Of a DNA stretch of 40,502 nucleotides, positions 696 through 32,991 are shown in pieces. Under the pieces are notes generated by a model, which was given only the letters and a program-made list of their open reading frames with translations, searched no databases and was not told the origin of the DNA. Location: the IMG/VR virus record IMGVR_UViG_3300036771_000028, positions 1-40,502 of that record; one strand, given 5' to 3'. Numbering within the stretch: position 1 is the stretch's first letter; each line of letters opens with the position of its first letter. Made by a program: the position numbers and the translations under genes. Source of the stretch: a virus.

Positions 696-1529
696 TCACA
701 CTTCCGGGGTTCCGGCGGTCCAGGCGACTTGTGGCGGCGCCGCATGCCATGCGACTTCCGGGGCGCCAATAATGAAGTCGATGTCGCGTTGCGGGCCAAG
801 TATCGCGATGGTGAACGAGTCCGTAATGGTCCCGATGTCCGTGAGCGCGGATGCGATGCTGAGCGTCAGCGTGTCGCCGATGGTGCCTGTTTCCGTCTGA
901 CCGGACTGCATCGCGACGGCTGGCGCGTCTGTGACTGTTCCGGCATCGGTGAGCGCACCCGATGCGGCAATGCTCACAGCATCGGTTGCCGTGGCCGTGT
1001 CGGTCTCATCGACGTTGACCGTGCCGGTACCAACGGTGAAGAGTACGTCAGCGAAGTAGCATGATGCGCCGAATGTCTGCTCAGGGAATGCCGCTGTGGC
1101 GCCTACATGAAATTTGCCGTTGGTATTGGGCGTGATGACGTCATTGGCGATGGCTGTTAGGTGGCCGTTGGTTATGCCCGATGATGCGAATAGGCCGCTA
1201 GTTGCGACATACCAATCGGGGGTTAATACGGCTGCCACATACAGCGTACCGGCGGTAATGTTGACGGGGCTGGCGAAGTTAACCGTATTCCATGTGCCCG
1301 CCGTTGGGCTGACGAATGTGGCGCGTGCCAACTCGCTGCCGGTCGTATCTGTCGTGTAGCTGTAGAGCAGTCCTACGGCCGATGCGGGGAGCGTACTGGG
1401 AAAGTACCAGCGAATGCCGGTGATCTGTCCGTCAACCGATGCCGTGAAAAGCGTGCCTAGCGTCAGCCCGGGTGCAGCGTCGCTGAAACTGCCCGATGGC
1501 GTCTGAGAGGTAAAGATAGACTCGCTCAT
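696..1529 (-). CDS. DUF4082-domain minor tail protein
   Basis: This 277-residue protein has two parts. Residues 1-165 match the DUF4082 beta-sandwich pattern (SIFTSQTPS start, then a TLGTLFTAS and ITGIRWYFPS core), a domain often found on exposed carbohydrate-facing proteins. Residues 166-260 are low-complexity and built of imperfect repeats with a recurring ALTDxGTxTD unit (GALTDAGTVTD, SALTDIGTITD). The C-terminus holds short repeats of the type PxVAWxA. The arrangement fits a tail tip or fibre protein whose N-terminal domain contacts the host surface. It sits in a tight leftward cluster (8 bp from the upstream gene, 7 bp to the downstream one). The domain call is from pattern recognition; receptor binding is inference. 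Confidence 0.75.
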   Translation of the reverse strand: MSESIFTSQTPSGSFSDAAPGLTLGTLFTASVDGQITGIRWYFPSTLPASAVGLLYSYTTDTTGSELARATFVSPTAGTWNTVNFASPVNITAGTLYVAAVLTPDWYVATSGLFASSGITNGHLTAIANDVITPNTNGKFHVGATAAFPEQTFGASCYFADVLFTVGTGTVNVDETDTATATDAVSIAASGALTDAGTVTDAPAVAMQSGQTETGTIGDTLTLSIASALTDIGTITDSFTIAILGPQRDIDFIIGAPEVAWHAAPPQVAWTAGTPEV

Positions 1530-2878: not shown

Positions 2879-3008
2879 GTGGGCGCCCCCAGAGCAGGAT
2901 TGCGATTCGTTGCCGCCGTACCGGTGAGAGCTTCGGCGGGTTGGCTAGGAGTCGGGCGATGCTGGCACGTGCCACGTCCGCATCGGTGAGCGTTGCTGGC
3001 GCGGTCAC
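2835..3008 (-). CDS. small hypothetical protein coupled to RusA
   Basis: This 57-residue protein starts at a GTG whose last two bases overlap the TGA of the RusA gene (GTGA, 3005-3008). That is a coupling signal used repeatedly in this genome. The sequence has a helical segment reading DADVARASIARLLANPP, then KLSPVRRQRIAILL, a pattern common in tiny actinophage proteins that follow resolvase or repressor genes. A longer in-frame reading up to 3221 would overlap RusA almost completely and is rejected. Function is unknown. Confidence 0.55.
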   Translation of the reverse strand: MTAPATLTDADVARASIARLLANPPKLSPVRRQRIAILLWGRPHGKSDQSASSRNGQ

Positions 3009-3520
3009 GGTAGGCACGCGAAGTCTCGGCCGGTGCCGTAGTGCGCGCCAGCAAGAACGTTGCCAGCGTCGGAGCGGGCCAGCCTCGCCACGTCTGCCCG
3101 CGCGGCCTCTGCGGCGGTCCACACGGCCACAGAAACCCCCGGGCCACCCAGCGCACCGGGCGAACCTTCGTAGAGCTTCTGGAGCCGCACGTAGCCGACC
3201 ACCCGCGCGTCGTCGACCCACACCCGCGCGTCGGTCATGCTGTCCTCAACCGCCCGACACAGCTTGGATAGGTCCGGCACCCGGTCCGGCAAGTCGCGGG
3301 TAACCGTCTTCGGCCGAGGCATGGTAAATACCATGGCGCAAATGAGCGGGCCATCCAACGGTAGTGGCTCATTCAATTCGCGCATCATTGCGAGTGCGGC
3401 AATGCGCACCGTTTCCCGCCACGGCTTTAACCGCTTACTCGCTTCAATCATTACGCCATTGCCAACATGTCTTTTACTGCCTTGTGGCGCCGGGTGCCCG
3501 TGTGCGATGAATGACAACAT
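3005..3520 (-). CDS. RusA-family Holliday junction resolvase
   Basis: This 171-residue endodeoxyribonuclease is predicted to resolve four-way DNA junctions during replication and recombination. The N-terminal GHPAPQGSKRHVGNG is typical of the Gram-positive phage RusA group. The central strand PLICAMVFTMPRPK leads to the active-site region VPDLSKLCRAVEDSM (about residues 81-95) and WVDDARVV (101-108). Asp83, Asp93 and Asp103/104 are available for metal binding. The usual PDxDKL reads PDLSKL, so one acidic position is Ser85. The ATG shares one base with the upstream stop (TGATG). It sits with PrimPol and the Cas4-like exonuclease in a replication-recombination operon. Confidence 0.85.
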   Translation of the reverse strand: MLSFIAHGHPAPQGSKRHVGNGVMIEASKRLKPWRETVRIAALAMMRELNEPLPLDGPLICAMVFTMPRPKTVTRDLPDRVPDLSKLCRAVEDSMTDARVWVDDARVVGYVRLQKLYEGSPGALGGPGVSVAVWTAAEAARADVARLARSDAGNVLAGAHYGTGRDFACLP

Positions 3521-3870
3521 CAGAATGGAATCCCCTCGTTTGTGGAGTCCGGTTCTAATGCTTCCGATTCGGCTGCCGATTCATGTCGTATGAAATGCTG
3601 CCCGCATATGTGCGCCGGCATGGTCGGGCCACGTATCCGCATCATGTGTGCACGCTGCGGCGGCGCGAGCGGCACCAGCTCTCGGCCGCCGCACATCAGT
3701 CGGTAGAGCCGTCGGCCGGTGATGGTGGCTGCCAGGATCTCCGGCGCTGTGAGTGCCACCGGGTCGACCCGTGTCCGGAACCCTTCGACCATCGCGCCCA
3801 GGACTACGGCTCCGCAGCGATGGCATCGGCTAGGTGTGACTGGCGTGGAAATGAGATGTTGACCGCTCAT
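3520..3870 (-). CDS. putative zinc-ribbon protein
   Basis: This 116-residue protein begins MSGQHLISTPVTPSRCHRCG. It has CHRC near residue 16, a central MCGGRE segment and a C-terminal HICGQHFIRH. Four Cys and several His could bind one or two zinc ions. It ends in an acidic tail. It is the first gene downstream of the origin-like region in the leftward direction and overlaps the RusA start by one base. Its role may be DNA binding during replication, but that is inference from position. No named family was recognised. Confidence 0.7.
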   Translation of the reverse strand: MSGQHLISTPVTPSRCHRCGAVVLGAMVEGFRTRVDPVALTAPEILAATITGRRLYRLMCGGRELVPLAPPQRAHMMRIRGPTMPAHICGQHFIRHESAAESEALEPDSTNEGIPF

Positions 3871-3898
3871 GGCTGAGCACTTGCCGTTGCTTGCGCAA

Positions 3899-3934
3899 CG
3901 CGAGACGCGTGTACTACGTACACGCGATCTCGCG
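3899..3934. repeat. Long interrupted palindrome in the origin region
   Basis: CGCGAGA (3899-3905) pairs with TCTCGCG (3928-3934). Inside, GCGTGTAC (3907-3914) pairs with GTACACGC (3918-3925) across the triplet TAC. This gives 15 paired bases with one short internal asymmetry. In single-stranded form it could be a hairpin priming or protein-binding site, analogous to single-strand initiation sites. That use is inference. Confidence 0.6.
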
Positions 3935-4085
3935 ATGTTGCGCCAAGCGCAACGTCAAAGCGAGTGCTGTTGTTGCACGCAACGAGTGTGCAACGTGACG
4001 CAACTATAGGCTGTTTCCGCAGGTCAGAGCGTTGCGTGAGATCAACTAGGCGTGTAACTAAATGATGGCCATCACTTAAGGTTCC

Positions 4086-4105
4086 TGTGGATAACCTGTG
4101 GATAA
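4086..4105 (-). promoter_or_regulatory. Two tandem DnaA boxes
   Basis: TGTGGATAA occurs at 4086-4094 and again at 4097-4105, separated by CC. The complement TTATCCACA is the universal bacterial DnaA-box consensus, matched 9/9 in both copies. The 11-bp centre-to-centre spacing is one helical turn, so two DnaA molecules would load on the same face. This implies the phage origin recruits the host initiator. Confidence 0.8.
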
Positions 4106-4152
4106 CTTCCATGGTTGCGTGGCGTTGCGTGGCACAGATGATCTTGTGCAAC

Positions 4153-6168
4153 TTAGTCACCGCCATCGCTGTAAAATGGCCCCTGACCTGCGGATTCCTC
4201 GCGTGAAGGTGTCGCACGCCATACCCGCAGCCGATCCGTGCCCGATTCGATGGCCCGGCCGGAGCTGGTCAGTTCCCGCAGCGCGCGCCATAGCGTTGAC
4301 CTGTGAACGATCTTCAGCTCTGCTGCGATTTGCGGTCCGGACAGCGCCGAGCCACCGGCGTCGACCAGCAGGGACAGCACGCGCACGGCCACCGGCGACA
4401 CTGCCTCGCTGTCGCTGGCCGACTCGATCACGATGCTGTCGTACAGCCGGCGCCGGCGCAACCATCGGCTAGCCCCCGCTTCACCATCCTTCACCTTCTT
4501 CCGCTTCAATTCGATGAGATCTGTTTCTGATTCCCCGCTCAATACCAATACCTCGTCGACGTTTGCTTCTAATTGGTAGCCGCCCCGGGTGCGGCTATTG
4601 TCACTCCAGCCGGGATGGTGAATGAGTAATGCGGTTGCTTGCAAATCGCTGGCCAAGTCGCTTAGTCGGCGGGTCATTAATGCGGCGTCTTTTGTTTCGT
4701 CCGCGTCCGGGGCCAGTGATGAAAACGTGTCCAGCACGATCAGTCCGGCGTCTAATTCGGCGGCTTGCGTGCGCAGTTCCTGCCATGTCTTTATCGCGTT
4801 CAGCGACTCTGGCCGAACCGCAAATATCAGTTCATCGTCTTCTATGGGACGCCCCCATGCCTGCTCCCATGCGCTGACCCGAGCGTTCAGCCCGGACGCA
4901 CCCTCGCCCACCACGTACAGCACGCGCCGCCGCTCCACGTGCTGCCCGAGCCACACCAAACCGCTCGCCACACTGCACGCCCAGGACAGCGCTACGAACG
5001 TCTTCCCTACCCCGGTGCTCCCTACCAGCACTACGGCGGAGCGTTGCGACAGCACACCCGTAATCAGCGGTTCGACGCGTGGCAGCGCTCGCAGTTCACT
5101 GCGCCGCACGAGTGATGCGGCGAATCCCTGCGCCCGTTCCTGCGGCGCGTCGCCGAGTATGGGTATGAACGGTGTCAGCGTCAGCTCTGCCGCCTCGCGC
5201 TGCTGCCCGAAACCCAGCTGCGCCAGTTCCCGGGCCGCCGCAGCATGATCCCCGTTGTGGTGCAGTACGGCGTACGCCCCAAACTTTGTGTAGGGAGTTT
5301 CCGTGTCAAATTGCGTGCTGCTGCTGAAGACAAACAAGCGGTTTCGATCGTTGGCTTTGCCGGTTGTGGCGCTGATCCCCCGGTCTTTTCCTGGCCTGCG
5401 CCACGTGCTGTATCCGTCCTCGTTCCCGCTGACGCATGTCCAGCCGGCGCCGCCCAGCAACATGGAGCTGTCCCATGACACGCGCGCCTCGAAATCGTCG
5501 CCCGGTGACAGCCCCTCGCGCGGGCTGCTGTGCGTTGCGGCCGCCGGAGCTGACGCCGATACAGATGGTGGCGATTCGTCCAGTAGCCGGAACAGCCGAT
5601 GCAGTTCATTGCGTTCGGCCATGGTGAACCATGGGACGCGTCCGGGTTGGCCGGTGATGATTTGCCATGCTTGCCCGCTGGGATGCACAGTGCCGTGTGA
5701 TGGGGCCACAATGACGTAGCCCCCCTCCCCGCGTGTTTCGGCCAGCACCTGCATACGTGAATCGCGGGCCAGTTTGGTGTTGCCGGGAATGATTTCGGCA
5801 TCTGTGATGCGGTACAGCCAATGGAACCCACCACTGGGTGAACGTTCCCAATATCCGCAGATGAGTCGGTCCCATAGGTCTTTCACTCCGGCGACCGTTG
5901 CCGCTTCTGTGAGCGCCGCCAGCGCCCCCGATTCGGCTGCCCTTCCCTCCAACTCCAGCATTTCGAGATTGCCGCTCACACCACCGCAAACCAGGCCAAC
6001 GCCGGTGAAGTTTGACAGCGCATACCATTCTTCAATCTGCCAGCGTGCCGGACGCAAGCGCGTGTATTGCTGCCATGCGGTTGCCGGCGCTTTACTGCCA
6101 TCTTCGCGGGGCGGTATGACACATGCGCCAGCGTCATGCCATGCCAGTGCGGCGGCGCGCGTGTCCAT
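4153..6168 (-). CDS. Bifunctional PrimPol-helicase (replication protein)
   Basis: This 671-residue replication protein combines three parts. Residues 1-200 form an archaeo-eukaryotic primase-polymerase (PrimPol) domain with PSGGFHWLY (111-119) and RGEGGYVIVAPS (146-157). The usual DxD metal motif reads as acidic ELE in MLELEGR (70-76). Residues 365-600 are a RepA/DnaB-like ATPase with Walker A GSTGVGKT (383-390), Walker B LIVLD (476-480) and an IHHPG motif. A C-terminal winged-helix-like segment follows (SGPQIAAELKIVHRSTLWRAL). It should prime and unwind DNA at the origin adjoining its 3' end. The start at 6168 is 2 bp past the upstream stop. No separate DNA polymerase is visible, so elongation probably uses the host enzyme. 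Confidence 0.88.
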   Translation of the reverse strand: MDTRAAALAWHDAGACVIPPREDGSKAPATAWQQYTRLRPARWQIEEWYALSNFTGVGLVCGGVSGNLEMLELEGRAAESGALAALTEAATVAGVKDLWDRLICGYWERSPSGGFHWLYRITDAEIIPGNTKLARDSRMQVLAETRGEGGYVIVAPSHGTVHPSGQAWQIITGQPGRVPWFTMAERNELHRLFRLLDESPPSVSASAPAAATHSSPREGLSPGDDFEARVSWDSSMLLGGAGWTCVSGNEDGYSTWRRPGKDRGISATTGKANDRNRLFVFSSSTQFDTETPYTKFGAYAVLHHNGDHAAAARELAQLGFGQQREAAELTLTPFIPILGDAPQERAQGFAASLVRRSELRALPRVEPLITGVLSQRSAVVLVGSTGVGKTFVALSWACSVASGLVWLGQHVERRRVLYVVGEGASGLNARVSAWEQAWGRPIEDDELIFAVRPESLNAIKTWQELRTQAAELDAGLIVLDTFSSLAPDADETKDAALMTRRLSDLASDLQATALLIHHPGWSDNSRTRGGYQLEANVDEVLVLSGESETDLIELKRKKVKDGEAGASRWLRRRRLYDSIVIESASDSEAVSPVAVRVLSLLVDAGGSALSGPQIAAELKIVHRSTLWRALRELTSSGRAIESGTDRLRVWRATPSREESAGQGPFYSDGGD

Positions 6169-32100: not shown

Positions 32101-32991
32101 CTACTCCTGCTCAGGATTGCGATTCATGTTTGACTCGAAAACGCGGAATGCCTCTTGCCGCCAATAGGTTTCGTCGTCAAGGAAAACGCCACCCTTGTCA
32201 TGCGTAGTCTTTACGCTCGTATCAACAAAGATGGGCATTCCGACGCTGGCAACACGAATACAGAACGACAAGTCTTCGGAGAATGTGCGGGGCTTACCCC
32301 GGTCGCCGGTCGGGTGAGTAATCAAGTCGTACCAGCATGGTCCGTGCTTTTCGGCGATGCGCTCCAGAACGCTGCGGTGAATGAGCACACACGCGGCACC
32401 GGTGCCGGCAACCTGCGTGATGGCGTCAATCGGGTACGCCCCGATGGCACGAAACCCCACTTCGGCATCCGTGGTCACGAAGTCATACAGGGTGGGCTGG
32501 AGCGAGTACCTTTCCGCGTGTAGGTCGGCATGTCCGGCGCCACGTAGGCAGAAACACAGTGCGCCCATGACTGGTGCACCGGCCGTTTCGGCGCTCTCCA
32601 TCAATCGCTCTACGGTGTCGGGGGCGAAACCCATGTCGGTATCAACCATCCACAGCCATTCGCCATCTGTGGAGTCGAGAAAGCGCCGCGCTACCTCGTT
32701 GCGGCCGGCTGAAATGCCACCGGCCCCGGTGACCTTGCGCAGTTCACTGCCACCGGGCCGCACGATGCGTTTCGAACCAAGCGCATCAAACAAGCTCAGA
32801 TCACGGTACGAAAGTCCGAAACAGGCAGCCCATTGCCCGTTGTCGAGCATTCCGGCGACCACACTGCCGGCGCGCATTTCTCCGGCCGCCACGGGCGCCG
32901 GCGCAAGCGTTTCGCCGCTGGTCAGCGATGACAGCTCCGGATGATCAGTGATGAACGCATCAAAGCTGTCCGTCATGGCTGCGGCTACCAT
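32101..32991 (-). CDS. Family 2-like glycosyltransferase
   Basis: This 296-residue GT-A-fold enzyme is predicted to transfer a sugar from a nucleotide donor. After about 90 residues of variable N-terminus come ISAGRNEVARRFLDST and the metal-binding DxD site WMVDTDMGF (Asp117, Asp119). Later PVMGALCFCL, VAGTGAACVLIHRSVLE and SEDLSFCIRVASVGMPIFVD give the acceptor-side motifs. There is no membrane span. Its location inside the head genes suggests it modifies a virion protein, such as capsid or tail, rather than host wall. The start is either 32991 or 32976. The enzyme class is secure; donor and target are unknown. Confidence 0.82.
   Translation of the reverse strand: MVAAAMTDSFDAFITDHPELSSLTSGETLAPAPVAAGEMRAGSVVAGMLDNGQWAACFGLSYRDLSLFDALGSKRIVRPGGSELRKVTGAGGISAGRNEVARRFLDSTDGEWLWMVDTDMGFAPDTVERLMESAETAGAPVMGALCFCLRGAGHADLHAERYSLQPTLYDFVTTDAEVGFRAIGAYPIDAITQVAGTGAACVLIHRSVLERIAEKHGPCWYDLITHPTGDRGKPRTFSEDLSFCIRVASVGMPIFVDTSVKTTHDKGGVFLDDETYWRQEAFRVFESNMNRNPEQE

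Follow-up and report, generated by a model that had tools for sequence, protein, structure and literature searches.

The window, the whole stretch of 40,502 nucleotides analysed here, comes from an IMG/VR virus record. It carries genes for terminase, portal, capsid, protease, tape measure and endolysin, and further genes encode a PD-(D/E)XK exonuclease, a serine integrase and a RusA resolvase. No end repeats were found on this contig of an uncultured phage. A single-sequence search of IMG/VR gave no close relatives, so that profile searches were needed, and among phage records there was no close DNA relative beyond a 6% stretch of Shambre1. Near the replication genes the window encodes a 277 amino acid protein with a DUF4082 domain (696-1529, minus strand), and near the capsid and tail genes a glycosyltransferase-like protein (32101-32991, minus strand). 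The genes and domains of the replication region are as follows.

3005-3520, minus strand: RusA-like Holliday junction resolvase
3520-3870, minus strand: next gene downstream of the initiator (phrog_10480)
4153-6168, minus strand: initiator of 671 amino acids with PrimPol (AEP), RepA/AAA_25-type ring helicase and predicted C-terminal winged helix
4213-4413, minus strand: winged-helix domain, residues 586-652, proposed iteron reader (model, HTH_11)
4600-5115, minus strand: RecA-fold helicase domain, residues 352-523 (Pfam, structure match)
5650-6132, minus strand: PrimPol domain, residues 13-173 (Pfam; identity to L129 and L130)

Primase, helicase and winged helix are thus assigned to one 671 amino acid polypeptide by Pfam matches to Prim-Pol (residues 13-173, E 1e-12), AAA_25 (residues 352-523, E 3e-30) and HTH_11 (residues 597-642, E 1.3e-4, slightly under the gathering score). 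The AlphaFold2 model of the initiator (pLDDT 82) has its best PDB matches in RepA of RSF1010 (1nlf/1g8y), and in this model residues 586-652 follow an H-H-H-E-E pattern, with a pLDDT mostly of 81-92 over the block. The isolated C-terminal 81 residues gave a low-confidence fold with winged-helix-like structure matches, none of them at E <= 0.001. The PrimPol half resembles those of Arthrobacter phages and actinobacterial prophages, and in the PrimPol-half relatives scanned the helicase is mostly of the D5 type. A resolvase gene likewise follows the PrimPol gene in the Arthrobacter phages RootBeer and Peas.

The repeat array behind the initiator gene

The segment 3880-4152 lies directly 3' of the initiator gene, as the preliminary description of this DNA had reported, and upstream of the gene at 3520-3870 (minus strand). 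The following elements were located in it, the sign after each copy giving its orientation.

3886-4152, no strand: iteron array, twelve copies of GCAAC/GTTGC (word counts)
3886-4035, no strand: distal iteron block, copies 3886+, 3895-, 3937+, 3949-, 3972+, 3979-, 3990-, 4000-, 4031+
3906-3926, no strand: inverted repeat CGCGTGTAC-tac-GTACACGCG at the distal end of the array, perfect 9-bp arms
4036-4113, no strand: AT-richer gap between the blocks, with the DnaA boxes (GC 0.44 versus 0.61 for the contig)
4063-4074, no strand: 12-bp palindrome TGATGGCCATCA
4086-4094, minus strand: perfect DnaA box TTATCCACA
4097-4105, minus strand: perfect DnaA box TTATCCACA
4114-4152, no strand: proximal iteron block, copies 4114+, 4124+, 4148- (word positions)

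The twelve pentamers, six per orientation, extend from +1 to +267 relative to the initiator stop, the array starting 1 nt past it, and the recurrent longer form of the word is ACGCAAC. The whole window holds 159 copies of GTTGC/GCAAC, and therefore about 1.07 would be expected per 273 bp; the value of 0.5 given in the preliminary description was slightly low. The strong enrichment noted there was borne out and is limited to this gap: any other 273-bp window of the contig contains at most 4 copies, and dinucleotide shuffling of the segment gave 1.73 copies on average and never more than 6, with twelve reached in 0 of 2000 shuffles. When all 5-8-mers at all positions were compared, GTTGC/GCAAC ranked first among the word clusters of the contig (corrected log10 p -3.8).

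The two 9/9 DnaA boxes described earlier as 11 bp apart are indeed so spaced from start to start, which leaves only 2 bp between them, and those at 4086 and 4097 are the sole 9/9 matches in the 40.5 kb. The 12-bp palindrome is also present as described. The 36-bp interrupted palindrome stands in its core of perfect 9-bp arms, while its outward extension past these arms is imperfect. Rfam and tRNA scans of the sequence gave no match. A GC skew minimum at the segment had been named as a supporting sign; the skew along the contig has neither minimum nor switch near 4 kb, and is uninformative on the origin.

Arrays behind related initiators

The regions behind the initiator stop were examined for 30 PrimPol relatives from viral contigs, for 80 more found in the genomes of bacteria, almost all of them named actinobacteria, and for 80 proteins related to the helicase part. 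After near-duplicates and short fragments were dropped, 147 non-redundant loci remained, chosen by homology of the initiator protein alone. A dense array of one word, running from the initiator stop to about +300, was detected with a fixed threshold at 111 of these 147 loci, compared to 60 of 3048 other ORF stops and 28 of 940 random positions. The count is conservative, because arrays such as that of RootBeer, which start at about +300, miss the fixed window; in about one quarter of the 147 loci no array was detected. Loci found through tandem DnaA boxes were left out of this count; among those with an AAA_25 helicase a word cluster lies behind the gene in 14/14, weakly in one (L050). The search for the array in related phages, proposed in the preliminary description, thus found counterparts at the same position in over a hundred phage and prophage genomes, and the arrangement, which had been thought unusual, is not: short words in both orientations behind the initiator gene are the rule for the class.

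At most loci examined a single word of 5-8 bp is repeated densely in both orientations. The words vary by lineage and include AGTGACA (RootBeer, Peas), ATGACGC (L129), AAGTGCC (L130) and CGGTCA (L136), while CGTAAC and GGTAC are found in many of the Toprim-AAA_25 viral contigs and CGCAAC in L262. Relatives with a Toprim primase likewise carry arrays, one of them being L241, whose helicase part is 56% identical, and an array is present in L242, where no primase domain was recognised. At 107 of the 111 loci the region 3' of the initiator has a higher AT content than the locus to which it belongs; a two-block layout or a large gap between blocks did not exceed chance across loci. Strong hairpins are more frequent near these stops (30% versus 2%). 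A conserved hairpin was rejected as an element, the inspected hairpins being mostly inverted iteron pairs.

Among complete plasmid-collection records with related initiators, four of five have an array behind the initiator. The arrays consist of GCAGGGA in 13 copies (Streptomyces plasmid of 34 kb), TGCCGCA in 6 (Klebsiella plasmid of 17 kb, which has phage genes), CGCAACA in 8 (Methylobacterium plasmid of 35 kb, which has a phage tail gene) and TGCGGAA in 12 (Caenibius plasmid of 38 kb, which has a terminase gene); L330 is the one of these records with CGCAACA. A Streptomyces plasmid with a separate P4-type primase has no array. Named phages with arrays include Sortsnevirus IME279 and Dhillonvirus EK99P-1, and Baloo, HokkenD, Morrissey, Jflix2 and Shemara have a related helicase with no array near it. 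In phage Peas (L127) the array at 40729-40950 lies within annotated gene 61 (40642-40983, hypothetical protein), which may have been annotated in error over the origin.

At 7 of the 147 loci, the window included, a perfect DnaA box lies no more than 400 bp from the initiator stop. Such boxes are present at 6 of 91 PrimPol loci, again including the window, and at 1 of 56 helicase-only loci, the expectation being 0.0041 per locus. In L179, L192, L314 and L011 DnaA boxes lie within or around the array. With so few loci having them, the boxes were ruled out as a core element; in these sequences they seem to be a genuine accessory element, an optional helper. The role of DnaA is uncertain because the boxes are absent from most relatives.

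Tandem DnaA boxes also occur in viral contigs where an AAA_25 helicase was not detected, beside CTAAGA arrays in L088, L037, L085 and L074 and beside lineage-specific arrays in L112 (ACCGG), L063 (ACCCTTG) and L026 (ACAGT). A second conserved element, CCCTAAAGGG/CCCTTTAGGG, lies close to the array at about 15-18 of the 56 AAA_25 loci, where less than 1 would be expected; it is placed 3' of the AAA_25 gene in L244, L250, L252, L262, L268, L270, L275, L281 and others, and is possibly a priming hairpin or a terminator. One or two copies of the 9-mer CTGACCTGC lie close to the initiator stop at 11 of the 147 loci, including the window (4019-4027, inside the array, and 4183-4191), L239, L147, L154 and L193. 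Some PrimPol phages have second clusters away from the initiator, namely CATGTC in 9 copies (L129, 1230-1502), ATGCAA in 8 (L153, 626-811) and CTAGA in 6 (L157, 49-168). The PrimPol-D5 initiator of L156 (6001-9186) has matches to intein splicing and LAGLIDADG domains, and is followed by an array of ATCTGTA in 10 copies and two DnaA boxes.

The word and the C-terminal domain of the initiator

Fusions of AEP primases with RepA-type helicases and winged helices were described by Kazlauskas et al., who suggested that it is the winged helices which read origins (PMC5862659). In order to relate the word to the parts of the protein, word similarity was regressed on the identity of each part for 64 PrimPol loci (2016 pairs). 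The standardised coefficient was 0.60 for the C-terminal segment of about 125 residues (permutation p 0.001), 0.07 for PrimPol and -0.14 for the middle, or helicase, part. These values come from a set almost wholly of the D5-type class and from a regression without phylogenetic contrasts, which removes common descent incompletely. As judged from these sequences, the word of D5-type relatives differs by lineage and tracks the C-terminal domain rather than the primase or the helicase.

The nearest relatives of the window itself can be set beside this pattern. Its PrimPol is 61-63% identical to those of L129 and L130 over the first 325 residues, and in spite of this closest PrimPol half their words, ATGACGC and AAGTGCC, are unrelated to that of the window. 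Its closest relative in helicase and winged helix is L239 (65% and 42% identical, respectively), which carries 11 copies of CGCGACA, one base away from the recurrent ACGCAAC of the window. Neighbouring words in the same orientation are spaced by 8-12 bp in 303 of 502 cases, with a peak at 10, while the spacing of opposite orientations is flat, without a preferred distance. We infer that the same-strand phasing of about 10 bp is the signature of proteins stacked on one face of double-stranded DNA.

Comparison with known replication systems

The closest parallel is the pri-rep-ori module of SaPIs and PICIs (SaPIbov1, SaPI5, EcCICFT073), islands that parasitise phages, in which short multi-copy iterons likewise lie immediately 3' of the initiator gene. 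Both SaPI Rep and SCCmec Cch2 use the C-terminal domain to bind iterons that lie directly downstream of the respective gene, and rep-ori segments of the SaPI/PICI layout drive plasmid replication. In the window the predicted winged helix would take the role that the C-terminal domain has in SaPI Rep. The primase is sometimes fused in SaPI/PICI modules, and the PrimPol is fused in the window. Two iteron sets around an AT-rich region are a PICI trait; the window has two blocks around a gap of GC 0.44, a layout whose gap size does not exceed chance across loci. The helicase is different, SaPI Rep being an AAA+ protein (DUF927- or D5-type) and the window protein a RecA-fold, RepA-type AAA_25 helicase, and, unlike a PICI, the window encodes a capsid, a portal and a terminase of its own and has DnaA boxes inside the array. 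The segment would act as a PICI origin does, with another helicase class and added DnaA boxes.

SCCmec Cch2, a D5-type protein, is similar in having 5-nt iterons directly downstream, and reads AAGTG by its C-terminal domain; the words AGTGAC and AAGTGCC of D5-type relatives resemble this AAGTG. It differs from the window in having only three iterons, a separate polymerase-primase and another helicase class. The window helicase is modelled like RepA of RSF1010, a hexameric type, and in RSF1010 as well a helicase of this kind works with an AEP primase. However, in RSF1010 the RepA helicase, RepB' primase and RepC initiator are separate, while in the window primase and helicase are fused with a winged helix, and the RSF1010 iterons are longer than those of the window. 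The alpha protein of phage P4 also joins a primase, a helicase and a winged helix that binds origin repeats, but its primase is of the Toprim type and the P4 repeats are of another length. A chromosomal oriC has a cluster of DnaA boxes next to dnaA, whereas the window has two perfect boxes and a PrimPol-helicase gene as neighbour.

ORF904 of pRN1 has the same order of PrimPol, helicase and C-terminal winged helix, and the essential region of pRN1 is directly downstream (PMC4234260). It differs from the window in its SF3 helicase and large downstream stem-loop, for which the authors state that there is no iteron structure (PMC4234260); the window has a RecA-fold helicase, iterons and only an inverted repeat with 9-bp arms. 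In NrS-1 the PrimPol half carries out recognition, unlike in the D5-type relatives, where the word tracks the C-terminal domain, and arrays exist without PrimPol.

The proposed origin and alternative explanations

The segment 3880-4152 is very probably the replication origin of the phage, to judge from its sequence and that of its relatives. Comparison strongly supports the earlier reading as an origin, with an array confined to the gap, located beside the initiator and having counterparts at 111 of 147 loci; GC skew gives it no support. We hold with good confidence that it would be an iteron origin read by the winged helix of the initiator itself, with DnaA as an optional helper. The C-terminal winged helix would bind the GCAAC iterons, and within each block initiators would be arranged head to tail on one helix face. 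The helicase ring would then be assembled over the AT-richer gap between the blocks (4036-4113), a plausible candidate melting site, which would be unwound, and the PrimPol domain would prime the opened strands. Host DnaA on the two phased boxes in the gap may aid melting or loading. With each initiator having its own origin directly behind its gene, word and reader would therefore move and diverge together.

The gene next to the array encodes a PrimPol, and the words could instead be single-stranded start sites for it, the two orientations serving both strands. NrS-1 PrimPol requires an 8-nt recognition sequence (PMC7102993), and the SCCmec enzyme CCPol-MP prefers starts near iterons. We regard such start sites as very unlikely to be what the array is for: the NrS-1 genome has two sites only (PMC7102993), arrays also lie behind Toprim-type initiators, and word similarity in D5-type relatives does not follow PrimPol identity. 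As a main function they are disfavoured by the 10-bp phasing, which points to double-stranded binding, by the word-domain regression and by L242, which has an array and no primase domain found.

The array is also just upstream of the gene at 3520-3870 (minus strand), and could be an operator regulating this gene and rusA, or a partition-type array segregating a plasmid-like prophage. Winged helices are common among regulators. This explanation is very improbable in view of the array position, which is tied to the initiator stop across very different genomes, and of the word, which tracks the initiator's C-terminus; among the window genes scanned there is no partition gene. Autoregulation could coexist with origin function. 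A host-type origin driven by DnaA, in which the boxes act and the pentamers are secondary, would account for the two perfect phased boxes and for the enrichment of perfect boxes near PrimPol initiators noted above. It appears extremely unlikely, as 111 of the 147 loci have an array whereas at 140 there is no perfect box within 400 bp, and the window offers two boxes only and no dnaA among its scanned genes.

Significance of the arrangement

The PICI paper states that its origin layout is shared by no other known replicon, and our literature search turned up no origin described for phages of this kind. We lean towards reading the cassette of an initiator with its own origin, described as unique to PICIs, as a general plan of small temperate phages that is used with two unrelated helicase classes. 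This reading includes the claims that initiators with a PrimPol, a Toprim primase or no primase share the cassette, and that only winged helix and word co-diverge, giving many mutually exclusive replication specificities in which DnaA is optional. If it is true, word arrays would predict the origins, and perhaps the incompatibility, of many uncharacterised phages from sequence alone. For most phages of the class the rule for a candidate origin is one dense short word right past the initiator stop. Each word being linked to a winged-helix domain, initiator-origin recognition becomes testable across dozens of natural pairs, and what had been published as speculation, origin recognition by the winged helix in PrimPol initiators, becomes a supported, testable claim.
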